A stretch of DNA of 36,753 nt, taken from positions 1 to 36,753 of the forward strand of contig CAIYVZ010000032.1 in assembly GCA_903929755.1 (NCBI GenBank). Reading direction: 5' to 3'. Within the stretch, counting starts at the first letter, position 1. Every line of letters starts with the position of its first letter. Below are positions 3,651-24,323 of this stretch, piece after piece. The notes under the pieces are model-generated. The model had not been told where the DNA came from, ran no database searches, and saw only the letters and a program-made list of their open reading frames with translations. A program made the position numbers and the translations under genes. This stretch comes from an uncultured Acidobacteriia bacterium (GTDB lineage: Bacteria > Acidobacteriota > Terriglobia > Bryobacterales > Bryobacteraceae).

Positions 3651-4499
3651 ATGCCGCATTCTACACCTCTTGAAATCGCTACCGCGTACAGTCCGGATTC
3701 CGATGACGCTTTCATGTTTTACGCTCTTGCCACGAAGAAACTCCGTTCTCCGATGGTGACTTTCCGGCATCAATTGTCGGATATCGAAACGCTGAACCGC
3801 AAAGCTCAGGATGGCGAGTACGACCTGACCGCCATTTCCTACCACGCTTATCCGTATGTTGCTGATAAGTATGTCCTGATGGCCGCCGGGTCCAGCATCG
3901 GTGATGGTTACGGGCCCTCTGTTGTCTCGCCCCATCCGATGGAACCTTCCGAGATTAAGGGCAAGAAAATTGCCGTACCCGGGTTGATGACGACGGCTTA
4001 TCTGGCGCTGAAGATTTTCGAGCCTGATTTTACACCCGTAGTGGTGCCGTTCGACAAAGTTCTGGAAACAGTAAATGCCGGTCTGGCCGACGCTGGCCTG
4101 ATTATCCACGAAGCGCAACTCACCTACAACAAAGAAGGTTTCCATCGCGTTCTGGATCTGGGTAAGGACTGGAAAGAGCGCCACAACCTGCCCCTGCCGC
4201 TGGGCTGCAACGTCCTGAAAAGGTCGCTTGCCCCCGACGTGAAGGTGGAATGCTGCAGGATGATGCGCGAGAGCATCCAGTACGCGCTGGACCACCACGC
4301 GGAGGCGCTGGAATACGCCATGCAGTTCGCCCGCGATACGGAACCTCGGCTGGCTGAGCAGTTCATCGGGATGTATGTGAATCACTACACTGTGGATGCC
4401 GGCGAGATCATCCCGAAAGCCGTCAAGTTGCTGTACGACAAAGGCTTTGAGGTTGGCATTATCCCGCATCGTGTAGATGTGGAATTCGCCCGCGGCTAA
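3651..4499 (+). CDS. mqnD: 1,4-dihydroxy-6-naphthoate synthase
   Basis: The 282-residue protein has a periplasmic-binding-protein fold without a signal peptide, as expected for MqnD. MqnD converts cyclic dehypoxanthine futalosine to 1,4-dihydroxy-6-naphthoate in menaquinone synthesis. Diagnostic segments are the N-terminal YSPDSDDAFMFYAL loop, YDLTAISYHAYPYV, GYGPSVVS, the KKIAVPGLMTTAYLALKIF strand-helix, DAGLIIHEAQLTY with the catalytic-type histidine, and LPLPLGCNVLKR. Length fits the family. It probably has its own promoter, because the gene before it faces the other way. mqnP and mqnE are 14 kb away in this window; mqnA and mqnC are not seen. Confidence 0.9.
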   Translation: MPHSTPLEIATAYSPDSDDAFMFYALATKKLRSPMVTFRHQLSDIETLNRKAQDGEYDLTAISYHAYPYVADKYVLMAAGSSIGDGYGPSVVSPHPMEPSEIKGKKIAVPGLMTTAYLALKIFEPDFTPVVVPFDKVLETVNAGLADAGLIIHEAQLTYNKEGFHRVLDLGKDWKERHNLPLPLGCNVLKRSLAPDVKVECCRMMRESIQYALDHHAEALEYAMQFARDTEPRLAEQFIGMYVNHYTVDAGEIIPKAVKLLYDKGFEVGIIPHRVDVEFARG

Positions 4500-9634: not shown

Positions 9635-12106
9635 ATGAAGTTTTTTGCGATAGCCCTGATTGGGGCATCCGTTTTATTTGGGCAGGGCATGGGCTCGTCG
9701 GGCTCAGTCTCGGGCACCGTTACCGACCCCTCGGGACTTCTGGTCGCCGGCGCTAAGGTTGAGATTCTAAACCGGGTTACCGGTTTTGACCGAACGGTGG
9801 AGACGGATAAGGACGGCGCCTACCGATTCATCAATCTGGTGCCCCATAACTATCATTTCCAGGTAACCGCTCCGGGGTTCGAAACGACCGTGGCGGATAT
9901 TGTGGTCCGAGCCTCCGTGCCTCTGGTCCAAAATGTGGCACTGAAACTGGCGCAGGCAACCAGCGAGTTGACCGTTCACGAGGATGCCGATTTGGTGGAG
10001 AGCGTGCCCACCCCGCACACGGTCGTCGATACCTCCCAGTTTGAAAAGCTGCCCGTTTACTCCGTAGCCGGGGGCCTGAACGACGTGGTGGCGCACTCCG
10101 CGCCGGGCATTGTGGAAGATTCCAATGGCTTCATCCACCCGCAGGGCGACCATGCCCAGACCCAGTTCGTGTTCGACAACCAGCCCGTCTCCGACCAGCA
10201 GAGCAAGCAGTTCTCCACCTCGATGCCGGAAAACGCCATCGCGTCGGTGGAGGTTATCGCCGGAGCGCCACCTGCGGAATTTGGCGACAAGACCAGCCTC
10301 GTCATCAACGCCATCACCAAGAGCGGCCTGGGCGTCCCGAGGGCCTTCGGCAGCCTGAGCGGCAGCGTGGGAGCCTTCGGCACCTTTGGCGAGCAGTTCA
10401 CCTACGGCACCGGCGGCAAGAAATGGGGCCAGTTCATTTCCATGAACACGGTGCGTTCGGGTCGCTATCTGGATCCGCCCGAATTCAAAGCACTCCACGA
10501 TGTTGGTAACAACCAAACTATTTTCGACCGCCTCGATTACCAGCCGACGGACAAAGACACCCTCCACCTGAACCTGTTCTTCTCCCGCGCCTGGTTCCAG
10601 ACCCCCAACACCTACGACCAGCAGGCTGGCGGGCAGGACCAGCGGCAGCGAATCATGACGTTTAATATCGCGCCGGGTTGGGTTCACCTTTTCAATGCGA
10701 ACTCCACCCTGACCGTAAACCCCTACGTCCGACAGGATCAACTCGTGTACACGCCGAGCCGCAACCGCCTGGACGATCAGCCGGCCACCGTGGAACAGAC
10801 CCGCCGCCTGATGAACATTGGCCTGAAAACGGACTATGCCTGGGTTAATCAGCACCACAGCATCAAGGCCGGTATCCAGTTGCAGAACACGTTCCTGACG
10901 GAGCGTTTTTCGCTCGGCATCACTGACCCGAACTACGTGGAAGACAACGACGCGCCTGGCCTGGCGCCTTACGACCTGACGCGTGGAGGCAAGCTCTTCC
11001 GCTTCAGCGCTCACACCGCCGTAAAGGAGTACTCAGCCTACATTCAGGACGCCATCACGTACGGTAGTTTCACGTTCCAGACCGGGGTTCGATTCGACAT
11101 GTACCGCGGCCTGGTGGGCGCGAATTCCCTGCAGCCTCGTCTCGGCGTGTCGTGGATTAACAAGCCCACCAACACCGTGCTGCGGGCGTCATTTTCGAAG
11201 TTCTTCGAGACACCTTACAACGAAAACCTGATTCTCTCCAGTTCGACCGGGGTTGGCGGACTCGCGTCGAACGCATCTGGTGCCTTCGGACAGACTCCCC
11301 TGCAACCCGGTTCACGCACGCAGTACAACCTGGGTATCCAGCAGGGCTTCGGGAAACATCTACTGATGGACCTCGGCTATTTCTACAAAGTGACCCACAA
11401 CGCGTACGACTTCGATACCCTTTTCAACACCCCGGTATTTTTCCCCATCGCCTGGCGCAAGAGCAAGATTGACGGCGTGTCGGCCAGAATTTCCATGACG
11501 CCGCTCCACGGTTTCTCCGCCTACTGGATTCCCGGCCACACCAGGGCTCGTTTCTTTGGCCCGGAGACCGGTGGCCTGCTGTTCAACTCACCGTTGAGCA
11601 CCGGAGTCTTCCGGATCGATCACGACCAGGCGTATCAGCACACCGCGAACCTGCGCTACCAGCACGGCAAGGATGGCACCTGGAGTTCGCTCACGTGGCG
11701 CTTCGATTCCGGGGCTGTGGCCGGTTCCGTTTCGACCCTCGAGCAGGCCTTTGAACTGTCCGGCGACGAGCAGGCCGCGATTCATTTCCATTGCGGAGCC
11801 CACTACGCCAGCGTGGGCCACCCGATAACCGCCTGTGCGGGCACAGCGGCTGCCGGACTGGTGCGGATTCCGACTTCGAATCCGAATGATGACCACAATC
11901 CGGCGCGTATGGAACCCCGGAATATGTTCGACCTTGCGGTTGGCCACGACAACATCTTCCACGGCGAACACCGTAAATATCGTGCGCAGCTGACCGTCAT
12001 CAACCTGGCCAATAAAGAGAGCCTGTACAACTTCCTGTCTACCTTTAGCGGCACGCACTTCGTGAGTCCGCGAGCGGTGACGGCCGAAGTTGGCGTGAAC
12101 TGGTAA
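9635..12106 (+). CDS. TonB-dependent receptor-like outer-membrane protein with carboxypeptidase-regulatory domain
   Basis: The 823-residue protein has a signal peptide (about 1-18), then a carboxypeptidase-regulatory-like Ig fold (about 22-105, GSVSGTVTDPSGLLVAGAKVEI). A plug-like region follows (about 120-250, with FDNQPVSDQQSKQF and SVEVIAGAPPAEFGDKTSLVINAITKSG). The rest is a long beta-barrel ending in EVGVNW with a terminal aromatic. This Oar-like layout is abundant in Acidobacteriota, and ligands are usually unknown. The start is set by AGGAGAGG at 9623-9630, just upstream of the ATG. Its stop codon directly abuts that of the topoisomerase-helicase gene on the other strand. The preceding small His/Cys protein may help it. 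Confidence 0.85.
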   Translation: MKFFAIALIGASVLFGQGMGSSGSVSGTVTDPSGLLVAGAKVEILNRVTGFDRTVETDKDGAYRFINLVPHNYHFQVTAPGFETTVADIVVRASVPLVQNVALKLAQATSELTVHEDADLVESVPTPHTVVDTSQFEKLPVYSVAGGLNDVVAHSAPGIVEDSNGFIHPQGDHAQTQFVFDNQPVSDQQSKQFSTSMPENAIASVEVIAGAPPAEFGDKTSLVINAITKSGLGVPRAFGSLSGSVGAFGTFGEQFTYGTGGKKWGQFISMNTVRSGRYLDPPEFKALHDVGNNQTIFDRLDYQPTDKDTLHLNLFFSRAWFQTPNTYDQQAGGQDQRQRIMTFNIAPGWVHLFNANSTLTVNPYVRQDQLVYTPSRNRLDDQPATVEQTRRLMNIGLKTDYAWVNQHHSIKAGIQLQNTFLTERFSLGITDPNYVEDNDAPGLAPYDLTRGGKLFRFSAHTAVKEYSAYIQDAITYGSFTFQTGVRFDMYRGLVGANSLQPRLGVSWINKPTNTVLRASFSKFFETPYNENLILSSSTGVGGLASNASGAFGQTPLQPGSRTQYNLGIQQGFGKHLLMDLGYFYKVTHNAYDFDTLFNTPVFFPIAWRKSKIDGVSARISMTPLHGFSAYWIPGHTRARFFGPETGGLLFNSPLSTGVFRIDHDQAYQHTANLRYQHGKDGTWSSLTWRFDSGAVAGSVSTLEQAFELSGDEQAAIHFHCGAHYASVGHPITACAGTAAAGLVRIPTSNPNDDHNPARMEPRNMFDLAVGHDNIFHGEHRKYRAQLTVINLANKESLYNFLSTFSGTHFVSPRAVTAEVGVNW

Positions 12107-15100
12107 TTAGCCGGCGTTGTTGATGATCCGGTAGATCTGCGCCCCGTATTTTTCCACAGTGTTCAGACCGATACCGGGGATCGACAGCAACTCGGCTGCG
12201 GTTGACGGCTTGTTCTTCGCGATACCGTCCAGCACCTTGTCGGTCAGGATGCGGAAGGCGGGAACGCCCTGGCGTTTGGCGATGGCCAGGCGCCACTCAC
12301 GAAGCTGTTTGTCGAGCATGGTGTGGTCTTCGTGAGCCTCTTCCACCATTTCGACAGCCTCGATCTTTGACTGCACCGTTTTCGCCGGGGCCTTTCTCTT
12401 CTTAGGAGCTTCGGCCTTCGCCTTCTTCTTGCCCTTACCGCTGGAGACAACGTTTTCCCGAATCTTCAGGTCGAGAGGCGTGTCTTCATCGACATACTCG
12501 GCGTCGCGCGTGCGGAACGCCCGGCGATAGGGGATCTGGCGACCGTCCTTTTCGAAGACTTCATCGGTCAGTTTCACCAGGCCGGCGCGAGCCAGGGCAT
12601 CCACCACGTCTTCCAGCCCATCGCGGGAGATACCGAGCGGCGTGGCCAGATCGGTATTGAGTTTCCCTACAGATCGCCCGCTGCCGGCCAGTTCGTCCAG
12701 AATGTTGCGGGCGAGAGTAATCTCTTTCTCGTTCGCAAGGCGGAAGCGCTGGGCGATAGTCTCTTCGGGTGCGCAGAAATCACAAATCCCGCAGGGTTTC
12801 TGGCTGTCCTTCACGTCGCCAAAGTGCTTGATGAGGCTCGACATGCGGCACTGGCTGCTCTGCGAGTAGCGGAGCATCTGCTCAATCTGTTCTTTCTTCT
12901 GCTCACCCTGAGCGATGTAGGAATCGCGCCAACTGGAGAGACCCCGCGTGACATTGCTGGCGTAGTCGACCAACGCTCCGCCATGCGTCCAGAGCTTTTC
13001 GAGCGACTTTTCAAACACTTCGTCCACAATCTTCAACTGGCGTCGGATATCCTCCGACGGTTCCGGCCGGTCAGTAAGACGGTTGAAGATCAGGTCCAGA
13101 ATTTTGACATCGGGATAGTCACGTTCGAAGAAGAAATCGTGCGTGTGGCGGTCCGCATAGGAGTGCATCAGGATGGCGCGGCTGGGTTCGCCATCGCGAC
13201 CCGCGCGGCCGATTTCCTGATAGTAGGCCTCCACGGAACCAGGCAGCGCGGTGTGGACCACGGAACGGACATCAGCCTTGTCGATACCCATGCCGAACGC
13301 GATAGTGGCGACGATCACGTCGAGCTTGCCGCCGAGGAATTTTTCCTGCACCGAGGAGCGCTTTTCCGCATCGAGGCCGGCATGATAAGCAGCAGTTGAG
13401 AAGTCCGCTGACAGCAGCGCCGCCACGCTCATGGCCTGTTTCCGGCTGGGCGTGTAGACGATGGCGGGACGGCGGTCCTCATCCATCAGCAACTGGCGCG
13501 TGAGTTCCGGACGACGAGATGGCGGAGCTTCCACCACCTCAATGGCGATGTTGTCGCGGCGAAAACCGTGGACGAAGCTGGCGGTTTCTCCGAGTGCCAA
13601 CTGGTCCCGAATATCCTGCTGGACCCGCGTAGTGGCGGTGGCAGTAAGCGCAATTACCGGGGCCGGGCGCAGCGAAGGCAGATAGCTGCCGAGCAGGCGA
13701 TAGTCGGGCCGGAAATCGTGACCCCACTGCGAGATACAGTGAGCTTCGTCGATGGCGACCAGCGAGGGCTTGCGCTTGGCCAGCATCTCGGGGAAGCCGT
13801 TCACGCGGAGACGCTCCGGAGCAATGAACAGGAACTGCAGCTTACCGCTCAGGTAATCGATGCAGACCTGACGGGACGCCGCGCGGTCGCGCCCGGAGTG
13901 GATACATTCCACCGCCAGGCCCAGCTTGCGGAGCTTGGCGAACTGGTCTTCCATCAGGGCAATCAGCGGACTGATTACCAGCGTGGTGCCGCCGAGCGCG
14001 ATGCCGGGTAACTGGTAACAGAGCGACTTCCCCGCCCCTGTGGGCATTACCAGCAGGACGTCCTGCCCCTGCATAACGGCGCGGCAGACTTCTTCCTGGT
14101 TGGCGCGGAACTTTTCAAAGCCAAAGGTCTTGTGCAGGATCTCCGGCAGCTCTTCGACGGTGGCCGCCTGAGTCCGTATGGGTTGTGTCGGAATCGATAG
14201 GGTCGGTATCGACAGGGTCGGAATTACCGGGGTCTGGCGCGCTGGCTCCGGAGCAGCAACCGATTCAGCACCTTTTGCCGCCTTCGCGCTCACCCGGCGC
14301 GCGGCGACCGGTACAGCAGCCAGCTCAGAAGCCGAGGCAGAGACGGGCTCGCCGCGGCGTTCCCGGGGAGCGGGCGGGAGCGTGCCGACCTTGCCCACCA
14401 CGGTTCGAACATAGTCCTCAATGCCGTTGATGAAAGGCTCGAGCTGGGCCTGACCTCGTTCGATGCGCTTCAGGTACGCTTCCCACTGGCCGGTCATCGC
14501 CGGGCTGCGGACTTCCGGATGGACAACCTCAATGAGACGGACACCCTTGTCCGTAGCCACCAGATTCCGGGCCTCGCGGGCAATGTACTCGCGCTTCAAC
14601 AGAACTTCGATGATGTTCGCACGAGTCGCCGGCGTGCCCAGACCGTTGTCCTTCATGGCGTCGGAAAGCTCTTTTTCGTCCAGCGTTTTCCCCGCCGTTT
14701 CCATAGCGGTCAGCAGCGTCGCTTCCGTGAAGCGCTTCGGGGGACTGGTCTTCTTCTGCTGACTGGCGGCCTCCAGAACGTCCTGCGGCTGGCCTTCCGC
14801 AAGGTTCGACGGCAACGTCTGCTCGTCATCGTCGCCCGACTTGCCTTCAGTGGCCTTCGCCTTCTTCGCGGGCTTCTTTTTCTCGACCTTGATGTCCAGA
14901 ACTTTCCAGCCGACCTGCTGAATCGCCTTGCCGGAAGAGTAGAACCGGTCCGTGATTTCGCCGTTCACAATGGCGGTGATGACGGTGGTCACATTCCAGA
15001 CGTGATCCTCATGCCACGCACTCAGCAGGCGGCGACAGACCAGGTCATAGATCTTGCGCTCATCCGGTGAAATATCCCCCGGCCGGGTAGCTGTCGGGAT

Positions 15101-16318
15101 GATGGCGTGGTGGTCGCTGACCTTGGTGTCATCGATGAAACGCTTGCTGAGAGGCCGTTCACCCGTACCGGGGGCGAGGTGCTCTTTGTACGGCCCGGAG
15201 ACGGCGTTGACCACGCGCGGCAAAGTCCGGCCAATGTCCGCAGACAAGTGGCGGCTATCGGTACGGGGATAACTGATCAGCTTGTGCCGTTCGTAGAGGG
15301 CCTGGGCGACGTCGAGCGTATGCTGGGCGGAAAAACCGAAGAGGCGGTTCGCATGGCGCTGCAGTTCGGTCAGATCATAGAGGGGCGGGGGGCCCATGCG
15401 CTGCGTCTCGGCGCGAACGGATTCAATCCCAGCCTGACCGGATTTCGCCCGTGCCACAATCCGCTTCGCCTCTTCGCCATCGGCGGGCAACCGGGACGAC
15501 TTCCGGATATCTTTGGTGTCCGCGACAAAGGTTCCCTGGTAAGCCTCGGCCTGGGGGAAGCCGGTGGGCCGGAACGTGGCGAGGACTTCCAGGTAATCGT
15601 CGGAGACGAAAGCCCGAATCGCCAGCTCGCGCTCCACCACCATGGCCAGGGTGGGTGTCTGCACGCGCCCCACGCTCAGCTCGTTGCCGTAGGTGAGCGT
15701 GTATGCCCGCGAGAGATTCATGCCGACCAGCCAGTCGGCGCGGCTGCGGCCCCGTGCGGCGGCAGCAAGGGCATCATAGTCGGTGCCCGGCTTTAGCGTG
15801 TCGAAGCCTTTGCGGATGGCTTCAGGCGTCAGCGACGAAATCCAAAGGCGCTGGAAGGGCTTGGCGCAACGCGCAGCTTCGTAGATGTAGCGGAAGATCA
15901 GCTCGCCTTCGCGTCCAGCGTCCGTTGCGCAAACGATGCTGTCGATGCGGGGGGAATTCAGAATCTTGCGAACGGTATCGAACTGGTCTTTTGTTTTGTC
16001 GCCGACAACGAGGGGCCAGTCGGCGGGGAGCATGGGCAGGGTGTCGCGACGCCACGATTTCCATTCGGGGCGAATCTCATGAGGCTGGCCCAGCGCCGCC
16101 AGGTGGCCGATGGCCCACGTGACAACATAGCCGTTGCCGTGCAGATAGCCGTCCCCCCGCGTGCTTGCGCCGAGGACCTTGGCGATGTCGCGGGCAACAG
16201 AAGGTTTTTCGGCCAGCACGGCCACGCTTCCGGATTCGCGTTTGGCTTCGCTCAACACCTCCAGTTTAGCGGCGAGGCGAAGCCGCCGGGGCAGGAAAGA
16301 AAAAAGCCGCCGCGACAT
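12107..16318 (-). CDS. topoisomerase III - RecQ helicase fusion
   Basis: One 1,403-residue polypeptide (from the ATG at 16318) contains two complete enzymes. Residues about 32-645 are type IA topoisomerase III: VLAEKPSVARDIAKVLG, Toprim DAGREGE (133-139), active-site Tyr350 in SYPRTDS, and HHAIIPT. A 75-residue Pro/Ala/Ser linker with IPTLS repeats follows. Residues about 723-1403 are RecQ: Walker A MPTGAGKS (758-765), DEAH (857-860), QEIGRAGRDG (1034-1043), zinc-binding cysteines 1157, 1176, 1179 and 1182, a winged-helix-like region, a basic spacer, and a C-terminal HRDC domain (from about 1334). RecQ unwinding with topoisomerase III strand passage dissolves double Holliday junctions, so fusion suggests an obligate dissolvase. 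The start is uncertain: 16318 is nine bases from the divergent sialidase start, and GTG codons at 16258 or 16225 also fit the family. Confidence 0.93.
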   Translation of the reverse strand: MSRRLFSFLPRRLRLAAKLEVLSEAKRESGSVAVLAEKPSVARDIAKVLGASTRGDGYLHGNGYVVTWAIGHLAALGQPHEIRPEWKSWRRDTLPMLPADWPLVVGDKTKDQFDTVRKILNSPRIDSIVCATDAGREGELIFRYIYEAARCAKPFQRLWISSLTPEAIRKGFDTLKPGTDYDALAAAARGRSRADWLVGMNLSRAYTLTYGNELSVGRVQTPTLAMVVERELAIRAFVSDDYLEVLATFRPTGFPQAEAYQGTFVADTKDIRKSSRLPADGEEAKRIVARAKSGQAGIESVRAETQRMGPPPLYDLTELQRHANRLFGFSAQHTLDVAQALYERHKLISYPRTDSRHLSADIGRTLPRVVNAVSGPYKEHLAPGTGERPLSKRFIDDTKVSDHHAIIPTATRPGDISPDERKIYDLVCRRLLSAWHEDHVWNVTTVITAIVNGEITDRFYSSGKAIQQVGWKVLDIKVEKKKPAKKAKATEGKSGDDDEQTLPSNLAEGQPQDVLEAASQQKKTSPPKRFTEATLLTAMETAGKTLDEKELSDAMKDNGLGTPATRANIIEVLLKREYIAREARNLVATDKGVRLIEVVHPEVRSPAMTGQWEAYLKRIERGQAQLEPFINGIEDYVRTVVGKVGTLPPAPRERRGEPVSASASELAAVPVAARRVSAKAAKGAESVAAPEPARQTPVIPTLSIPTLSIPTQPIRTQAATVEELPEILHKTFGFEKFRANQEEVCRAVMQGQDVLLVMPTGAGKSLCYQLPGIALGGTTLVISPLIALMEDQFAKLRKLGLAVECIHSGRDRAASRQVCIDYLSGKLQFLFIAPERLRVNGFPEMLAKRKPSLVAIDEAHCISQWGHDFRPDYRLLGSYLPSLRPAPVIALTATATTRVQQDIRDQLALGETASFVHGFRRDNIAIEVVEAPPSRRPELTRQLLMDEDRRPAIVYTPSRKQAMSVAALLSADFSTAAYHAGLDAEKRSSVQEKFLGGKLDVIVATIAFGMGIDKADVRSVVHTALPGSVEAYYQEIGRAGRDGEPSRAILMHSYADRHTHDFFFERDYPDVKILDLIFNRLTDRPEPSEDIRRQLKIVDEVFEKSLEKLWTHGGALVDYASNVTRGLSSWRDSYIAQGEQKKEQIEQMLRYSQSSQCRMSSLIKHFGDVKDSQKPCGICDFCAPEETIAQRFRLANEKEITLARNILDELAGSGRSVGKLNTDLATPLGISRDGLEDVVDALARAGLVKLTDEVFEKDGRQIPYRRAFRTRDAEYVDEDTPLDLKIRENVVSSGKGKKKAKAEAPKKRKAPAKTVQSKIEAVEMVEEAHEDHTMLDKQLREWRLAIAKRQGVPAFRILTDKVLDGIAKNKPSTAAELLSIPGIGLNTVEKYGAQIYRIINNAG
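14187..14231 (-). repeat. three 15-bp imperfect tandem repeats in the fusion linker
   Basis: Three consecutive 15-base units starting GTCGG (14187-14201, 14202-14216, 14217-14231) encode, on the minus strand, the IPTLS-type five-residue repeats of the linker between topoisomerase and helicase. Such repeats can change linker length by slippage. Confidence 0.6.
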
Positions 16319-16327
16319 AATCGACTC

Positions 16328-17491
16328 ATGCGCTTTTTTGCAGCCCTTTTGCTGGCCGCCACACTTCATGCGGCCGCGCCCGAATACTCGTCGGAACTGC
16401 TGTTTCCGCTCGAAAAATGGCACAATCACTCGTCCAGTGTCGTCGAGTTACCGAATGGAGACCTGTTGACGGTCTGGTTCCACGGGTCAGGCGAACGCAC
16501 GGCAGATGACGTCCTGATTCGCGGTGCCCGGTGGAACCACTTGACGAAGCAGTGGTCGGAACCGTTCGTGATGGCCGATACGCCCGGGTTTCCGGAGACA
16601 AACCCGGTCCTGTTCCTCGACTCGCAGAAGCGGCTTTTCTTTCTCTGGCCGGTGATCCTCGCGCACCAGTGGGAGACGGCGCTTATGAAGTACCGGATCT
16701 CGACCGACTACCAGCAGGTTTCCGGCCCGCCCAAATGGGAGTTTCAGGACAACATCCTGCTGATGCCGAAAAACATTGTAGAGAAAACGAATACCCTGGT
16801 CGCCCCCCTGCTGGATATGGGGGGTAAGAGGGCGGAGCACGCCAAAAACCTGGTGCTCCACGCCAGGGACGAGTATTTCTCGCGGATGGGCTGGTTCACG
16901 CGGACCCACCCCCTGGAACTGCCGTCAGGCCGAATCCTGGTGCCGATGTATTCCGACGGCTACTCCTACGGGATCATGGCGATCAGCGACGATCACGGGA
17001 TCACCTGGACCGCGAGCGAACCGCTGGTGGGCGAAGGCGGCATTCAACCGTCGGTGGTTCGGAAAAATGACGGCAGTCTGGTGGCCTATATGCGCGATAA
17101 CGGTCCCGCACCGCACCGCGCCTTGGTCAGCTATTCGAAGGACGACGGCGTTTCCTGGACGCAGGCAAAGGACACGGAAATCCTGAACCCGGGCACCAGC
17201 CTCGAAAACATTCGCCTCGCCAACGGCCACTGGATGATGGTCTACAACGATCTGGAAGATAAGCGCCACTCGCTGGTCGCGGCGATTTCGGAGGATGAAG
17301 GCGCAACCTGGAAGTGGCGTCGCCATCTGGACGGCAAGCCAAACGAAGTGGTGGCAAAGCAGTACCACTACCCCAGCGTCATCCAGGCCAAAGACGGCGC
17401 GATTCATATCACCTACAGCTACTTTGTGCCGGAGGGGAAGTCCATCAAGCACGTGCGGATTAATGAGGACTGGGTCAGGGCAGGCGATTAA
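16328..17491 (+). CDS. secreted sialidase-like (BNR/Asp-box) exo-glycosidase family protein
   Basis: The 387-residue protein has a signal peptide (residues 1-17, [17 protein letters not shown]). It then has a six-bladed-propeller-type sequence with Asp boxes [18 protein letters not shown] and ISEDEGATW. Supporting motifs are [17 protein letters not shown] near the start and [16 protein letters not shown] in the middle. These match the sialidase-like family common in Acidobacteria and Planctomycetes, where true sialidase activity is seldom shown. Export to the periplasm or outside is likely. A CATAAT at 16316-16321 lies seven bases upstream of the ATG, so the transcript could be leaderless. 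The last 17 bases overlap the end of larB. Confidence 0.82.
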
Positions 17492-18224: not shown

Positions 18225-18301
18225 TCACTTGCCAACTTAGCAGAGGGTCTTCCATGGCCCGGAGTTGCCGTTCCGCTAAAATAGAGATTCCCACCCAAAT
18301 A

Positions 18302-19171
18302 ATGTCCCTGAAACGCCTCAGTATGACGCTCGACATGATCAAGTTTGAGCATTCCGTGTTCGCGCTGCCGTTCGCGCTGACCGGGGCGATGCTGGCATTC
18401 CGGCAGACGGGGAACTTCTCGGCGCGTGGCTGGGTCATCCTGATTTGGATCATCGTGGCCATGGTGGGAGCCCGCTCCGCCGCCATGGCGTTCAATCGCC
18501 TGGTGGATGCCGAGATTGACGCGAAGAACCCCCGCACCAACACCCGCCACATCCCCGCCGGCCAGTTGTCACGAAGTTTCGGCTGGGCCTTCACGGTCGC
18601 TTCCAGCTTGATTTTCCTGTTCGCCGCGTGGCAACTGAACCCGCTTTGCCTGAAACTCGCACCGGCTGCACTGGGCGTCGTTTTCTTCTACTCCTACACC
18701 AAGCGCTTCACGTCGTTCGCGCACCTGGTACTGGGATTCGCGCTCGGCATCGCGCCCGCTGCAGCCTGGATCGCCGTCTCCGGCACGCTGGACCCGCGCA
18801 TTCTCTGGCTCACCGCCGCCGTCATGTTCTGGACTGCCGGCTTCGACGTCATCTACTCTTGTCAGGATTTCGACTATGACACCGCCGCCGGGCTCTTCAG
18901 TATTCCCAGTGCGTTCGGGATCGTTCGGGCGCTTCACATCGCGAAGCTGCTGCATGTCCTGATGATTCTTTCGCTCCTGATGCTGGCTTCCCAGCTGCAC
19001 CTCGGGCTGCTCTCCCTCGCCGGAATCGGCGCGGTGGCGGCCTTGCTGTTGTACGAACACGGTATCGTGAAGCCGAACGACTTATCACGCGTCAATGCGG
19101 CCTTCTTCACCATGAATGGCTGGGTTAGCGTGCTATTCTTCGTCTTTTGGGCCGCTGACGTCTTGTTGTAA
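18302..19171 (+). CDS. mqnP: UbiA-family prenyltransferase (menaquinone, futalosine route)
   Basis: The 289-residue protein has about eight hydrophobic helices. It carries both aspartate-rich motifs of UbiA enzymes: NRLVDAEIDAKNPRTNTRHIP (from Asn65) and DVIYSCQDFDYD (182-193). Because mqnE follows after 21 bp, I assign it as the prenyltransferase of the futalosine route, which prenylates 1,4-dihydroxy-6-naphthoate. The sequence alone would also fit 4-hydroxybenzoate prenyltransferases. The chosen ATG at 18302 precedes the conserved KFEHSVFALPFALTGAML stretch; a longer reading would enter the intergenic region. A -10-like TAAAAT at 18277 lies upstream. Confidence 0.87.
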   Translation: MSLKRLSMTLDMIKFEHSVFALPFALTGAMLAFRQTGNFSARGWVILIWIIVAMVGARSAAMAFNRLVDAEIDAKNPRTNTRHIPAGQLSRSFGWAFTVASSLIFLFAAWQLNPLCLKLAPAALGVVFFYSYTKRFTSFAHLVLGFALGIAPAAAWIAVSGTLDPRILWLTAAVMFWTAGFDVIYSCQDFDYDTAAGLFSIPSAFGIVRALHIAKLLHVLMILSLLMLASQLHLGLLSLAGIGAVAALLLYEHGIVKPNDLSRVNAAFFTMNGWVSVLFFVFWAADVLL

Positions 19172-19192
19172 ACCGTATTTTGTGGTGACCTT

Positions 19193-20311
19193 ATGAACGT
19201 TCATTTTGAAGACCGCCGTCTGTTGCCCATCCGTGAAAAAGTGGAGGCGGGCCTGCGCCTCTCGTACGAGGACGCCGTTACCCTCTACCGCACCAACGAT
19301 GTTCTGGCCCTCGGTTACATGGCCAACCTGGTGCGCGAACGGATGCACGGCAATGTGACGTACTTTAACGTCAACCGCCATATCAATCCCACCGATGTCT
19401 GCGTCGCCAGCTGTCGCCTCTGCGCTTTCGGCAAGCAGAAGCGCGACCCGAATTCTTACACCATGTCGCTGGAGCAGGTCTGGGAGACCGCCGGCAAGGG
19501 CTGGAGCGAGCAGATCACCGAGTTCCACATTGTCGGCGGCCTGCACCCGGAACTCAACCTGGACTGGTTCTGCCAGATGCTGCGTGGCCTGAAAGAACGG
19601 TACCCACAGATCCACCTGAAGGCCTTCACCATGGTGGAAATCGGCTACTTCGCCCGCCGCGAAAAAATGACGATCCGCGACGTGCTCATCCAACTGCGCG
19701 ACGCTGGTATGGACTCCATGCCTGGTGGGGGCGCCGAAGTTTTTTCCGAACGTGTTCGCCGCATCATCTGCGACCACAAACTGACCGGCGATGAATGGCT
19801 GGAAACGGCCCGTATTGCCCATGAACTGGGCGTGCATTCCAACTGCACCATGCTCTACGGGCACCTGGAAAATGAAGAGGACCGTGCGGATCACCTGGTG
19901 AAACTGCGCGCGCTGCAGGATGAGACCAAAGGTTTCGTTACCTTTATTCCCCTGGCGTTCCACCCCGACAACACGGCACTTTCCCACATCGCGAAAACGA
20001 CGGGATTTGACGACCTGAAGGCCATCGCTGTGTCGCGGCTGGTGCTGGATAACATCCCGCACATCAAGGCTTACTGGGTAATGCTCTCCGCCCGAATCGC
20101 GCAGATCGCGCTTCGTTTCGGCGCGAATGACATTGACGGCACGGTGGTGGAAGAGAAGATCTACCACGATGCCGGATCAACGGAATCGCAGGCCCTGAAG
20201 CGCGGCGATCTGTTGCGCCTCATCCGCCAGGCCGGACGCGAACCGGTGGAGCGCGACACGCTCTACCGCCCAGTGACGCGCACCGAATCCGCGTTTACCG
20301 TGTTGGTGTAA
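19193..20311 (+). CDS. mqnE: aminofutalosine synthase (radical SAM)
   Basis: The 372-residue protein carries the CX3CX2C radical SAM cluster motif at Cys70, Cys74 and Cys77 (DVCVASCRLCAFG), preceded by the family segment VTYFNVNRHINPTDVC. GGLHPELNLDWF, DSMPGGGAEVF and the C-terminal GANDIDGTVVEEKIYHDAG are typical of MqnE/MqnC. YSYPEPE-like motifs are not needed here. MqnE joins 3-[(1-carboxyvinyl)oxy]benzoate to S-adenosylmethionine to make aminofutalosine. MqnC has a similar core, but the NRHINPTDVC...CAFG form and the full GANDIDG motif favour MqnE. The gene lies 21 bp after mqnP and is probably co-transcribed with it. Confidence 0.88.
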   Translation: MNVHFEDRRLLPIREKVEAGLRLSYEDAVTLYRTNDVLALGYMANLVRERMHGNVTYFNVNRHINPTDVCVASCRLCAFGKQKRDPNSYTMSLEQVWETAGKGWSEQITEFHIVGGLHPELNLDWFCQMLRGLKERYPQIHLKAFTMVEIGYFARREKMTIRDVLIQLRDAGMDSMPGGGAEVFSERVRRIICDHKLTGDEWLETARIAHELGVHSNCTMLYGHLENEEDRADHLVKLRALQDETKGFVTFIPLAFHPDNTALSHIAKTTGFDDLKAIAVSRLVLDNIPHIKAYWVMLSARIAQIALRFGANDIDGTVVEEKIYHDAGSTESQALKRGDLLRLIRQAGREPVERDTLYRPVTRTESAFTVLV

Positions 20312-20346: not shown

Positions 20347-20955
20347 ATGGCGGTCGTATTAGATCCGGTCCTGAACGCGGAGGAGACCCCTCGGCGGGTA
20401 CGATTTACGCGCGACGCGGTTGACCACCTGCTGAATCTGGGTGCTTTTGCGGGCCAACGGTTTGAGCTCATCAGCGGAGATTTGATCGACAAGATGGGCC
20501 AGAATCCGCCTCACGCGTATGCGCTTAATCTGCTGATGCGGTATTTGGTCCGCCTCTTCGGGATTGAGCGCATTCGGTGTCAGTCGCCGATTGAGGTAGC
20601 CGATGTTGACCGTGAATACAGTTACCCGGAACCGGATCTGGTAGTGATGAGCGCGGCTAACCGGGAATACGCTCTTCGTCATCCTCACGGAACCGAGATC
20701 ACCCTTTTAGTCGAGGTAGCTGATACAACTTCCCACTTCGACCGAACGGTTAAGTCGAACCTTTATGCCCGCGCAGGTGTCCCGGAGTATTGGGTTCTGG
20801 ACGTCAGCCGACGGTTGCTGTACCTTTACCGTCACCCGGTGAATGGACAGTATTCAAGTTTGGTGAAAACAACTCCTGCCGAATCCGTGTCTCCGGAAGC
20901 CATGCCAGAGGCCGCCAGGGTGGTATCGGACCTCTTGCCTCCATTGAACGGCTAA
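20347..20955 (+). CDS. Uma2-family protein (restriction-endonuclease fold)
   Basis: The protein has 202 residues from the ATG at 20347; a GTG at 20332 is an alternative. It shows the Uma2/DUF820 core: FELISGDLIDKM, HAYALNLLMRYLVRLF, YPEPDLVVMS, TLLVEVADTTSHFDRTVKSNLYARAGVPEYWVLDV. The E...D...E-x-K pattern matches PD-(D/E)xK nucleases, but the biological role of this large family is unclear. A TACATT at 20335-20340 sits six bases before the ATG, and no ribosome-binding site is seen, so the message may be leaderless. Four bases of its end overlap the end of ku. Confidence 0.8.
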   Translation: MAVVLDPVLNAEETPRRVRFTRDAVDHLLNLGAFAGQRFELISGDLIDKMGQNPPHAYALNLLMRYLVRLFGIERIRCQSPIEVADVDREYSYPEPDLVVMSAANREYALRHPHGTEITLLVEVADTTSHFDRTVKSNLYARAGVPEYWVLDVSRRLLYLYRHPVNGQYSSLVKTTPAESVSPEAMPEAARVVSDLLPPLNG

Positions 20956-21800
20956 GCCGAACGCGCTTTCCGCTCCCGCTTCGGCGTTTCTTCCTCCGCG
21001 TCGTCCGCTTCTCCGGAAGCCGCGTGCGCCACCATTGGCGGTTTGCGCATCTCCAGACTGCGCCGCAGCGCTTCCATGATGTCGATCACCGGCGCGATAT
21101 AAGTTTCCGGCGTCTCCACCACTTCCTGCCCATCAATTTTGGCCTGAATCATGGCGCGCAGATTCGTCCGGTAAGTGTCACTGTACTTCTCGGGCTCAAA
21201 CTCCCCGGCGAGCGACTCCACCAGCATCTTCGCCAGCGCCAGTTCCTTATCCTTCAAATTCGTCACATCTGGCCGGAACTCATCCACCCGACGGACCTCA
21301 TCGGCGTAGTACATGGTGTGCAGGACCATGCCTTTTTCACCCGGCCGCAACACCACCACGTGTTCGCGATTGTGCATCGCAACTTTCGCGATGCCGAAGT
21401 AACCGAGTTGCTTCAGGGTCTCAAATAATAGCGCGTAAGGTTTTTCCCCGCCCTCGTCCGGGGCCATATAGTACGAGCTTTCCAGATAGACCGGGTCAAC
21501 ATCGGTGGCCTTCACGAACTCCTGGATCTCCATCACCTTCGCGGTCTTCGGAGCAACCTTGCGGATCTCCTCTTCCTCGACAACAACGTACTTCCCCTTC
21601 TCGTACTCGTAACCTTTAACGATTTCGCTGCGAGAAATGGGCTTGTCTTCAGCCTGACAATAGAGGACCTGCTTCACGCGCGAGCCGTCGTCTTTATGCA
21701 GCTGATTAAAGCTGATGGTTTCGCTCCGCGCCGCCGTAAACAAGCGCACGGGAAACGAAACAAGTCCGAAAGTGAGATGACCTTTCCAGGTACTAGCCAT
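20952..21800 (-). CDS. ku: Ku protein, non-homologous end joining
   Basis: The 282-residue bacterial Ku starts MASTWKGHLTFGLVSFPVRLFTA and contains KQVLYCQAEDKPISRSEIVKGYEYEKGKYVVVEEEE and LESSYYMAPDEGGEKPYALLFETL. It continues with REHVVVLRPGEKGMVLHTMYYADEVR and ends in a basic tail (PKRERKARSA). Ku homodimers ring DNA ends and recruit LigD in double-strand-break repair. Length and order fit the family core plus a short tail. The gene is divergent from ligD; with the ligD start at 21850, the spacing is 49 bp and both promoters probably overlap there. Confidence 0.93.
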   Translation of the reverse strand: MASTWKGHLTFGLVSFPVRLFTAARSETISFNQLHKDDGSRVKQVLYCQAEDKPISRSEIVKGYEYEKGKYVVVEEEEIRKVAPKTAKVMEIQEFVKATDVDPVYLESSYYMAPDEGGEKPYALLFETLKQLGYFGIAKVAMHNREHVVVLRPGEKGMVLHTMYYADEVRRVDEFRPDVTNLKDKELALAKMLVESLAGEFEPEKYSDTYRTNLRAMIQAKIDGQEVVETPETYIAPVIDIMEALRRSLEMRKPPMVAHAASGEADDAEEETPKRERKARSA

Positions 21801-21822
21801 GAACCCTCATGTTAGCTATAAC
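21794..21822 (+). promoter_or_regulatory. candidate ligD promoter
   Basis: TAGCCA at 21794-21799 (four of six consensus bases) and TATAAC at 21817-21822 are separated by 17 bp. Transcription would start near 21829 and give a leader of about 20 nt if translation begins at 21850. The -35 box overlaps the ku start codon, so expression of the two repair genes may be linked. Confidence 0.35.
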
Positions 21823-21849
21823 ATGAAAGCTGAACATTTCCAACCGCAT

Positions 21850-22617
21850 ATGTCGCTCGAAGAATACGCGAAGAAACGCGATTTCCGCAGAACTCCGGAG
21901 CCGGAACCCTCGGCAGCGGAGGCGAGTGCCACGCATTCGGGCCGTTTCTTCGTCCAGCGTCACAACGCCTCCCACCTCCATTACGACTTCCGCCTGGAGA
22001 TCGGCGGCACCCTGAAATCGTGGGCCGTGCCAAAGGGACCTACGCTCGATCCGGCAAAGAAACCCTTCGCCGCCATGGTGGAGGACCACCCCGTTGACTA
22101 CGGCGATTTCGAAGGTAATATCCCCAAAGGCAACTACGGCGCGGGCAGTGTAATGCTGTGGGACCGCGGCATCTTCGAGATCCTCGGCGAAGATGACGGT
22201 CTCGCTCAGATCGCGCGCGGCGATCTGAAATTCCGGCTCCATGGCGAGAAGCTCAACGGCACCTTCGCCATCGTGTCCATGAAGAACCGCGGCAAAGGTA
22301 ACGAGTGGCTGCTGATCAAGAAACAAGACGCCGATGCTCGAGCGGATTGGGATCCCGAAGCCTTCGCCTACAGCATTAAGACCGGCCGCACGCAGGAAGA
22401 AATCGCGGCCGATCTGCCCGCCAAAACGCACCCTAAAAAAAAAGTACCGGCCTTGACCCTGCATCGTTGCCGGGTGCAGTTAAAGCCCCTTTACCCGATT
22501 TCTTCGCGCCCATGGGAGCGCAGCTCACGGAGCAGTTGCCCAAAAGCGGGCGCTGGCTGCATGAGATCAAGTGGGATGGCGTCCGTGCGCTCGCTTACAT
22601 CCGCGATGGCTCGCTGA
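21850..22617 (+). CDS. ligD: LigD 3'-phosphoesterase module, zero-frame product
   Basis: The zero-frame product is 255 residues from the ATG at 21850, where LigD proteins typically open with SLEEYxxKRDF. ATGs at 21823 and 21799 are alternatives. The phosphoesterase domain (about 20-180) shows FFVQRHNASHLHYDFRLEIGGTLKSWAVPKGP and EDHPVDYGDFEGNIPKGNYGAG. It trims 3'-ends before ligation. From codon 196 the gene enters a run of nine A residues; beyond this the zero frame gives 57 non-family residues and then stops. The -1 frame continues into the ligase domain without a break. See the separate ligase-polymerase entry and the slippage-site entry. Confidence 0.8.
   Translation: MSLEEYAKKRDFRRTPEPEPSAAEASATHSGRFFVQRHNASHLHYDFRLEIGGTLKSWAVPKGPTLDPAKKPFAAMVEDHPVDYGDFEGNIPKGNYGAGSVMLWDRGIFEILGEDDGLAQIARGDLKFRLHGEKLNGTFAIVSMKNRGKGNEWLLIKKQDADARADWDPEAFAYSIKTGRTQEEIAADLPAKTHPKKKVPALTLHRCRVQLKPLYPISSRPWERSSRSSCPKAGAGCMRSSGMASVRSLTSAMAR
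22435..22443 (+). other. A9 tract at the ligD frame switch
   Basis: Nine consecutive A residues, read CCT AAA AAA AAA GTA in the phosphoesterase frame, mark the only place where the two halves of ligD join. A -1 slip here (or one extra A in the transcript) gives KKK-STGLDPASLPGAVKAPLPDFF, a normal LigD linker. The result would be one protein of about 824 residues. A9 tracts are known transcriptional slippage sites. A homopolymer sequencing error would look identical. Confidence 0.65.
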
Positions 22618-24323
22618 GCTTCTACACCCGCAATAACAACCGCTGCGAACGCCAGTACCCCGAACTCCAGATCCTGCCCCATTACGTGGACGCCGAATCC
22701 GCCATCCTGGACGGCGAAATCGTTGCGCTCGACGCGAAGGGTATCTCAAAGTTCGAACTGATCCAGCCCCGTATCCACCAAACCGACGCCCACTCCATCG
22801 CTAAAATGGGCCAGAAGAATCCCGTTCACTTCATCGCCTTCGACCTGCCTTTTTGCGATGGCTACGACCTCCGCCGCGTCCCGCTGGAAGAACGCAAGAA
22901 GGCTCTCGCCGCAATCCTGAAGCCCTGTCCTTTGCTCCGCTACTCCGATCACTTTGCCGACTCCGGAGAGCACCTCCTCGAAGCTGCGAAACACGCGGGC
23001 CTCGAAGGCCTGGTCTCTAAGCGCGCCAGCAGCCTGTATGAATCCCGCCGCTCGGCAGCCTGGCTGAAGCTGAAGCTCACCACTGAACAGGAGTTCCTCA
23101 TTGCCGGCTACACACCAGGCGAGCGCGACACTTTCGCGTCACTGGTACTCGCTTATGTGGATGAGGACGGCGCGCTGGTCTACGCGGGCAACGTCGGCAC
23201 AGGCTTCACCGAAAAGATGCTGCGGGAACTGCTGGCCATGCTGGAGCCCCGCACAATTCCGAAAAGCCCTCTCGACCGCGGCACGAAGATCCCCAAAGGC
23301 ACCATCTGGGTAAAGCCCGAACTCATCGCGCAAGTGAAGTTTCTCGAATGGACCTCGGAAGGCCGGCTCCGCGCTCCCGTTTATCTGGGTCTGCGTGCTG
23401 ACAAAGCCCCCCTGGAAGTGGTCCGCGAGAAGCCACAAGCCGCCGGCGAAGCCGCGCTCAAGTTCACCAACACCGACAAGATCTACTTCCCCGAACACGG
23501 TTACACCAAGGGCGAACTCCTGCTGTATTACGACACCGTCGCCCCGCTGATCCTGCCCCACCTGAAAGACCGGCCCCTCTCGCTGAAGCGCTTTCCAAAC
23601 GGGATTCACGGCGAACACTTTTTCCAGAAAAACACTCCCGACACCTACCCTTCCTGGCTGCGCACCGAACTCGTCGGCAATACGCGCTTCATCGTTTGCA
23701 ATGACAAACAGACCCTGCTCTACCTCACCAACCTTGGCTGCATCGACCAAAATCCGTGGATGAGCCGCATCGGCACCCTGCAACATCCCGACTTCATCCT
23801 GATGGACATCGACCCCTTCGAATGCGAATTCCCCAAGGTAGTGGAAGCCGCCCTGCTGGTGAAGGAAAAACTCGACGCCATCGGCCTCACCGGCTATCCC
23901 AAGACCACCGGTGGCGATGGCCTGCACATCTACGTCCCCATTGAACCGGTCTACACCTACGAACAGGCCCGTTTCTTTGCCGAAGTGATCGCGCGCCTCC
24001 TCGCCGCTGAACACCCAAAGCTGTTCACCACACCCCGAGCGCTCGAAAAGCGCGAGAAGGACCGTGTCTACTTCGACTGGATGCAGATCGCCGAAAGTAA
24101 GACCATCTCAGCTCCGTACGTGGTTCGCGCGCACCCCGGAGCCCCCGTCGCCACACCCCTGCAATGGAGCGAAGTGACACCCGCACTCCACCCCTCGCAA
24201 TTCACCATGAAGACAGCTCCAGACCGCTTCGCCGAACTCGGTGACATCTTCGAAGGGGTTCTGACAAAACCGCAGCGAATCGAGAAGGCTTTCGGGAAGC
24301 TGGACCAGCTGGTACGGCGGTAA
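22467..24323 (+). CDS. ligD: LigD ATP-dependent ligase and polymerase/primase modules
   Basis: The 618-residue part is read from a TTG at 22467, but probably belongs to a longer protein entering from the A9 tract. The ligase domain (about 8-310) has motif I HEIKWDGVRALAY (Lys35 nucleophile), ILDGEIVALD, GLEGLVSKRA and WLKLK. The archaeo-eukaryotic-primase polymerase domain (about 330-618) has YFPEHGYTKGELLLYY, LSLKRFPNGIHGEHFFQKN, the metal pair MDIDP and TTGGDGLHIYVP. The order phosphoesterase-ligase-polymerase matches the Pseudomonas-type LigD. No ribosome-binding site is seen before the TTG, which favours synthesis by frame change. It partners Ku. Confidence 0.88.
   Translation: MPGAVKAPLPDFFAPMGAQLTEQLPKSGRWLHEIKWDGVRALAYIRDGSLSFYTRNNNRCERQYPELQILPHYVDAESAILDGEIVALDAKGISKFELIQPRIHQTDAHSIAKMGQKNPVHFIAFDLPFCDGYDLRRVPLEERKKALAAILKPCPLLRYSDHFADSGEHLLEAAKHAGLEGLVSKRASSLYESRRSAAWLKLKLTTEQEFLIAGYTPGERDTFASLVLAYVDEDGALVYAGNVGTGFTEKMLRELLAMLEPRTIPKSPLDRGTKIPKGTIWVKPELIAQVKFLEWTSEGRLRAPVYLGLRADKAPLEVVREKPQAAGEAALKFTNTDKIYFPEHGYTKGELLLYYDTVAPLILPHLKDRPLSLKRFPNGIHGEHFFQKNTPDTYPSWLRTELVGNTRFIVCNDKQTLLYLTNLGCIDQNPWMSRIGTLQHPDFILMDIDPFECEFPKVVEAALLVKEKLDAIGLTGYPKTTGGDGLHIYVPIEPVYTYEQARFFAEVIARLLAAEHPKLFTTPRALEKREKDRVYFDWMQIAESKTISAPYVVRAHPGAPVATPLQWSEVTPALHPSQFTMKTAPDRFAELGDIFEGVLTKPQRIEKAFGKLDQLVRR

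Follow-up and report, generated by a model that had tools for sequence, protein, structure and literature searches.

In eukaryotes, RecQ-family helicases and topoisomerase III are established partners, working as BLM-TOP3A-RMI1/2 or Sgs1-Top3-Rmi1, and a review (PMC8191776) credits the pair with jointly dissolving double Holliday junctions and precatenanes. In bacteria the partnership is disputed. That review counts Escherichia coli topoisomerase III among the RecQ-topoisomerase III complexes, whereas a 2026 paper (PMC13244152) has RecG, not RecQ, acting with E. coli topoisomerase III and reports no observed physical interaction between RecQ and topoisomerase III; it describes the two proteins affecting each other in vitro, yet recent E. 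coli genetics pointing to RecG. Here we describe a topB-recQ gene that encodes both enzymes in a single chain. It lies in a stretch of 36,753 nucleotides (the window) from an uncultured Acidobacteriia bacterium of the Bryobacteraceae (assembly GCA_903929755.1, contig CAIYVZ010000032.1). A first-pass annotation, made from the letters of the window, had taken the RecQ-topoisomerase III partnership as established throughout; this stands for eukaryotes and is contested for bacteria.

The fused protein belongs to the same two enzyme families as E. coli RecQ and TopB, which are two separate proteins, and models of its parts match topoisomerase III and the RecQ catalytic core. With the BLM and Sgs1 dissolvasomes it shares the pairing of a RecQ-family helicase with topoisomerase III, and its modelled helicase half matches BLM; those assemblies are multi-subunit and include the OB-fold protein RMI1, whereas the fusion relies on a covalent tether with the topoisomerase first (no search for RMI1 was made). 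Reverse gyrase also carries a helicase-like part and a type IA topoisomerase in one chain, in the opposite order and with a different type of helicase. In Listeria (L160:2498-6447), recQ and topB are adjacent, 23 bases apart, an independent link between the two; they encode separate proteins there, in the opposite gene order. Our literature searches, which scarcely covered subscription journals, found no published account of a TopB-RecQ fusion, and the domain order may be listed in UniProt or InterPro. The two enzymes and their joint action are already known; their natural one-chain form in bacteria is, to the extent of these searches, undescribed.

The gene occupies 12107–16318 on the minus strand, as a single open frame of 1,403 amino acids from an ATG at 16318 with no internal stop, which bears out the uninterrupted frame that the first-pass annotation had reported without naming a strand. 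A wider minus-strand frame (12107..16429) gives 1,440 amino acids from a GTG, and the true start, at 16318 or further downstream, is unsure. On the plus strand the same interval holds several stops. In this one frame a RecQ helicase and a topoisomerase III, the pairing that marks a dissolvasome, appear to be held together.

Both halves look full, as had been claimed from their motifs (Table 1). The Pfam domains of a topoisomerase III are present with their residues, and the NCBIfam TopB models are passed (TIGR01056, 587.5 against a cut-off of 515.75; NF005829, 677.7 against 597). On the helicase side, the Pfam matches are accompanied by the superfamily 2 (SF2) motifs, the zinc cysteines and the HRDC domain of the RecQ family, the winged helix being known from the model alone. 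The family model TIGR00614 is passed (401.8 against 219.8) and the equivalog model of canonical bacterial RecQ, TIGR01389, is failed (500.3 bits against 640.2); because that cut-off was missed, we assign the helicase half to the RecQ family and not to canonical RecQ. The closest solved relatives by sequence are 1oyw, which we take to be E. coli RecQ, and E. coli topoisomerase III. A model of the RecQ half, with a predicted local distance difference test score (pLDDT) of 87.6 and a predicted template modelling score (pTM) of 0.79, matches both BLM and the catalytic core of RecQ. A model of residues 28–1190, from TopB to the zinc site, consists of two good domains and a linker of pLDDT <50, and its best Foldseek matches are E. 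coli topoisomerase III (template modelling score by target 0.80–0.85).

One reading of a chain that joins a helicase to a type IA topoisomerase is that it introduces positive supercoils in the manner of reverse gyrase. The Pfam layout, topoisomerase first, is the reverse of the order in that enzyme, as had been noted from the motifs, and the NCBIfam rgy model gives 117.6 bits, short of its cut-off of 471.7; moreover, the helicase half is of RecQ type, with a zinc site and HRDC, and the topoisomerase half of TopB type. The score and the domain order rule out reverse gyrase itself, and a reverse-gyrase-like activity is very improbable.

To describe conservation we used 89 complete-fusion frames, which reduce to 76 distinct sequences including that of the window; cut, broken and C-terminally divergent copies, such as one whose match ends at residue 1266 (G349), were left out. 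The Toprim acidic residues (Glu37 and those of DAGREGE), Tyr350, Lys764, DEAH, GRAGRDG and the four zinc cysteines are invariant in 76 of 76; in the DPDREG motif of E. coli, the second Asp corresponds to a Gly here. The linker between the halves, estimated at first at about 75 residues, measures 72 (651–722) in the window, and ranges from 9 to 157 in the relatives (median 42), being rich in Ala, Pro and Ser. All the linkers of the 76 distinct relatives, 3,933 codons, are free of stops, for which base composition gives a chance of about 2e-27, a figure that serves as a guide only, the sequences being related and preselected as complete frames. We also considered production of a separate RecQ from an internal start and rejected it: a scan of the linkers for a Shine-Dalgarno (SD) sequence with a start found candidates in three of the 76, the window not among them.

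The host genome is a 97.9% complete draft in 212 contigs, which would leave room for an assembly or annotation artefact that joined two genes. We therefore looked to other genomes. In a survey of 200 genomes of the order, 159 of them good, TopB was matched (E 1e-60 or better) in 106 genomes, 87 of them good. In 85 of the 106, the open frame that holds TopB is 1,200 amino acids or longer, with the RecQ half on the same contig (frame lengths were compared by eye). The remaining 21 comprise five interrupted copies, discussed below, and 16 that reach a contig end, several of which still show both halves in one frame; one of the 16 (G534) is also frame-changed near its end. There was no clear stand-alone TopB among the 106; the closest is G397, in which a real change and a sequencing error are indistinguishable. 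Scanning contigs with patterns from the window protein, which surveyed no other phylum directly, gave 73 loci, all titled Acidobacteriota. Of these, 67 combine portions of the two halves within a single frame, which is complete in 52; four lone halves sit at contig ends, and one locus (L108) is a lone RecQ. The join is also present on contigs of 3.5 Mb (L257) and 9.5 Mb (L258). Recurrence of the join thus refutes an artefact, whose chance we put as negligible; and the listing of fused against separate genes, proposed with the first-pass annotation, came out opposite to its refuting outcome, in that the halves are not always encoded separately. The two long contigs belong to genus g219, where the fused frames (L257:431-5632 and L258:280-5163, minus) run to 1,734 and 1,628 residues and have, inside the TopB half, an in-frame insert that consists of tandemly repeated units of the type RTPSSAADPLVG.

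Across the phylum, TopB was found in 44 of 396 genomes spread over the Acidobacteriota. Ten of these TopBs are fused, in six families (f1, f8, f35, f38, f48 and f74), two (G376, G246) run off the end of a contig and two (G241, G281) stop short inside the helicase half. The other 30 have frames no longer than 1,065 amino acids, 23 of them in family f24, and the ten of these 30 that we examined gave no helicase match. In family f6, two TopBs of about 1,065 residues (L187:193-3381, L188:603-3797) carry three C-terminal Toprim_Crpt repeats where the fusions carry RecQ.

To follow the history of the two halves, we built trees from rows chosen by hand for spread among 149 usable RecQ frames: 38 fused, 24 alone and two outgroup. 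A single clade of the TopB tree unites every one of the 38 sampled fused copies with three truncated ones, apart from the stand-alone TopBs (Shimodaira-Hasegawa-like approximate likelihood ratio test, SH-aLRT, 99); long branches among the stand-alone rows call for caution. By this sequence evidence the fused TopB is of single origin. In the RecQ tree, stand-alone helicases are nested among the fused ones; the architecture label needs eight changes, at least three of them forced by well-supported branches, and a single clade of fused RecQs is rejected (approximately unbiased, AU, test, p 0.000185; the group was set by architecture and the test made after the tree was seen). The nested stand-alone RecQs, of families f2, f48 and others, are of the same RecQ subfamily as the fusion, with zinc site and HRDC, and differ in having no TopB half. 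The simplest account would be one fusion followed by repeated loss of the topoisomerase half, which left lone helicases.

The three truncated TopBs (L194:1028-3721, L195:1128-3752 and L085:2-2626, two of them from family f2) end inside the helicase half. In all three the TopB residues are intact and the first helicase domain is degenerate, with DEAH changed to EEAE, so that the helicase part is possibly a non-catalytic remnant. A separate RecQ is present in both searchable genomes with the truncated form (G241, G281).

We consider this protein probably to be a naturally fused topoisomerase III and RecQ whose covalent coupling serves decatenation and the dissolution of junctions. Its anatomy, the invariance of its catalytic residues, the one origin of its TopB half and the keeping of its frame in many genomes are supported directly; the coupling and the cellular role we infer. 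RecQ-family enzymes are 3'-5' helicases, and type IA topoisomerases require single-stranded DNA. The RecQ half would unwind junctions, converging forks or hemicatenanes and so offer a single-stranded segment to the topoisomerase; the tethered TopB half would cleave that strand via Tyr350, pass the other strand and reseal, and could relieve the torsion that would otherwise stall the helicase. The flexible linker, placed where some other TopBs have C-terminal repeats, may hold the pair together with no separate docking protein, and the tether would keep the topoisomerase at the single-stranded DNA of the helicase. Likely jobs would be decatenation late in replication and the non-crossover removal of joint molecules. 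The "built-in dissolvase with fixed 1:1 stoichiometry" of the first-pass annotation is a fair inference from the sequence.

Several observations weigh against this interpretation. No confident arrangement of the two halves is predicted (pTM 0.54 for residues 28–1190), and from this value and the linker pLDDT <50 we therefore predict that the halves are joined by a flexible tether and not in a fixed assembly. The segment aligned with the E. coli decatenation loop is of similar length in the window protein and variable among relatives (19 to 56 residues, net charge -3 to +6), and because of this variation skill in decatenation is not assured. The E. coli genetics of PMC13244152 speaks for RecG rather than RecQ as the partner of topoisomerase III, and RecG is also present in the host. 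Five of the 106 copies in the order are interrupted. In three of these the halves occupy overlapping frames on one strand, the pattern that a frameshift would leave; it falls within or close to the linker in G515 and G397 and inside TopB in G519. Another (G548) is interrupted and the last (G563) is a fragment of 198 residues. The linker of the window has no stop or frameshift, named at first pass as grounds for refutation; a few relatives (G397, G515) do change frame there or close by. Among the 73 scan loci, five are interrupted (L069, L078, L094, L103, L107), two of which look the same as interrupted genomes of the order. Because TopB was not matched in 72 of the 159 good genomes of the order, nor in three of 15 sampled genomes of the window's genus, the coupled enzyme is dispensable; and because the topoisomerase half has seemingly been lost several times, the helicase has a use of its own.

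Such points can be taken to mean that the two enzymes are merely joined, both working on different tasks, with the fusion ensuring joint expression alone. The range of linker lengths and the disorder of the modelled linker agree with this, as do the persistence of the helicase half alone and the want of support for RecQ-topoisomerase III teamwork from E. coli genetics (PMC13244152). We nevertheless think it rather unlikely, given that six of the sampled families have the join, with the fused TopBs in one clade, that the frame is unbroken in 85 of the 106 TopB genomes of the order while no genome shows a clear division into two working genes (G397 being nearest), and that recQ and topB are neighbours in Listeria.

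A bolder form of the coupled-enzyme reading, which we entertain tentatively as a possibility, is that of a self-sufficient bacterial dissolvase, a single polypeptide that would do the work of BLM-TOP3A-RMI without RMI1-like helpers and would be the main partner of gyrase in unlinking sister chromosomes; if true, RecQ-topoisomerase III teamwork would be native to bacteria. The host has TopA, RecG and RuvC, and at the cut-offs applied its genome gave no second TopB or RecQ. PF00521 (GyrA/ParC family) is matched once, and no separate ParC was found. Because of that single match, gyrase seems to be the sole type IIA enzyme of the host, and the fusion seems its sole topoisomerase III. The presence of TopA leaves the division of work open, and the fused enzyme might instead serve another substrate, for example by removing R-loops or by relaxing negative supercoils as a backup, and not junction dissolution; PMC10187895 and PMC4125114 describe type IA enzymes as acting on R-loops and supercoils too. 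TopA can itself cover relaxation, however, and the helicase is of RecQ type with HRDC, a family tied to recombination intermediates, and we regard this alternative as improbable.

Numerous soil Acidobacteriota encode, in one protein, a DNA-untangling topoisomerase and a helicase proposed to assist it, which other organisms have as separate proteins. A fusion of single origin kept in several families is natural evidence for a functional link between topoisomerase III and RecQ, the link that is disputed in bacteria. It is also a ready reagent, one gene and one chain, with built-in controls in Tyr350, Lys764, a cut in the linker and the lone-helicase relatives.

Table 1. Features of the topB-recQ gene in the window (residue numbers from the ATG at 16318)
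Feature	Position	Strand	Remarks
topB-recQ fusion gene	12107..16318	-	1,403 codons + stop; open frame extends to 16429
Toprim domain, residues 33-162, DAGREGE at 133-139	15833..16222	-	Pfam PF01751; motif invariant 76/76
Type IA topoisomerase body, residues 181-630	14429..15778	-	Pfam PF01131 Topoisom_bac, 365 bits; best Foldseek match of modelled part is E. coli topoisomerase III
Active-site Tyr350 codon	15269..15271	-	YPRTD motif; Y in 76/76 fused relatives
Linker, residues 651-722 (72 residues)	14153..14368	-	pLDDT <50 over 647-716
Helicase RecA-like domain 1, residues 739-901, DEAH 857-860	13616..14104	-	Pfam PF00270 DEAD; DEAH invariant
Walker A, residues 759-767, Lys764	14018..14044	-	K in 76/76
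Helicase RecA-like domain 2, residues 938-1043, GRAGRDG	13190..13507	-	Pfam PF00271 Helicase_C; GRAGRDG 76/76
Extra helical/winged insert ahead of the zinc site and after the helicase core, ~residues 1071-1125	12944..13108	-	Model secondary structure; columns 1065-1129 filled 76/76
RecQ zinc-binding region, residues 1137-1182, Cys1157/1176/1179/1182	12773..12910	-	Pfam PF16124 RecQ_Zn_bind; four Cys invariant
Winged-helix-like region in RQC position, ~residues 1197-1269	12512..12730	-	High-pLDDT model; columns 1195-1270 filled 76/76; no Pfam RQC match
Second flexible Lys-rich linker, residues 1291-1331	12326..12448	-	pLDDT <50
HRDC domain, residues 1337-1399	12122..12310	-	Pfam PF00570; filled 76/76 (the set admitted only sequences matched as far as residue 1390)

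The gene stands tail to tail with a TonB-receptor-like gene, named by eye, that ends at 12106, and no operon is evident around it. No conserved neighbourhood was seen when 18 window genes were compared with the 73 loci; the flanks did not exceed 8 kb and 53 loci reach 10 kb or more, so that the five outer window genes were hardly reachable. Thirteen window genes were matched, all in L037 and L038 except for one match of 30% in L057; matches to neighbouring genes are thus almost confined to the two nearest relatives. Mobile origins were considered as well. A plasmid origin was rejected, no record among the best 5,000 plasmid records covering 80% of the protein, and so was a phage origin, as none of 61 matching phage records covers 80% of it. 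In a scan of viral contigs, all 34 loci match in the helicase half, from which both patterns were drawn, so that helicases alone were reachable.

Two further groups of window genes were named by eye. About 5 kb from the fusion, at 20952-24323, are Ku-like and LigD-type ATP-dependent DNA ligase-like genes of non-homologous end joining, which are kept alongside the fusion in L038. At 3651-4499 and 18254-20311 are genes resembling those of the futalosine route to menaquinone (MqnD, MqnP and MqnE).

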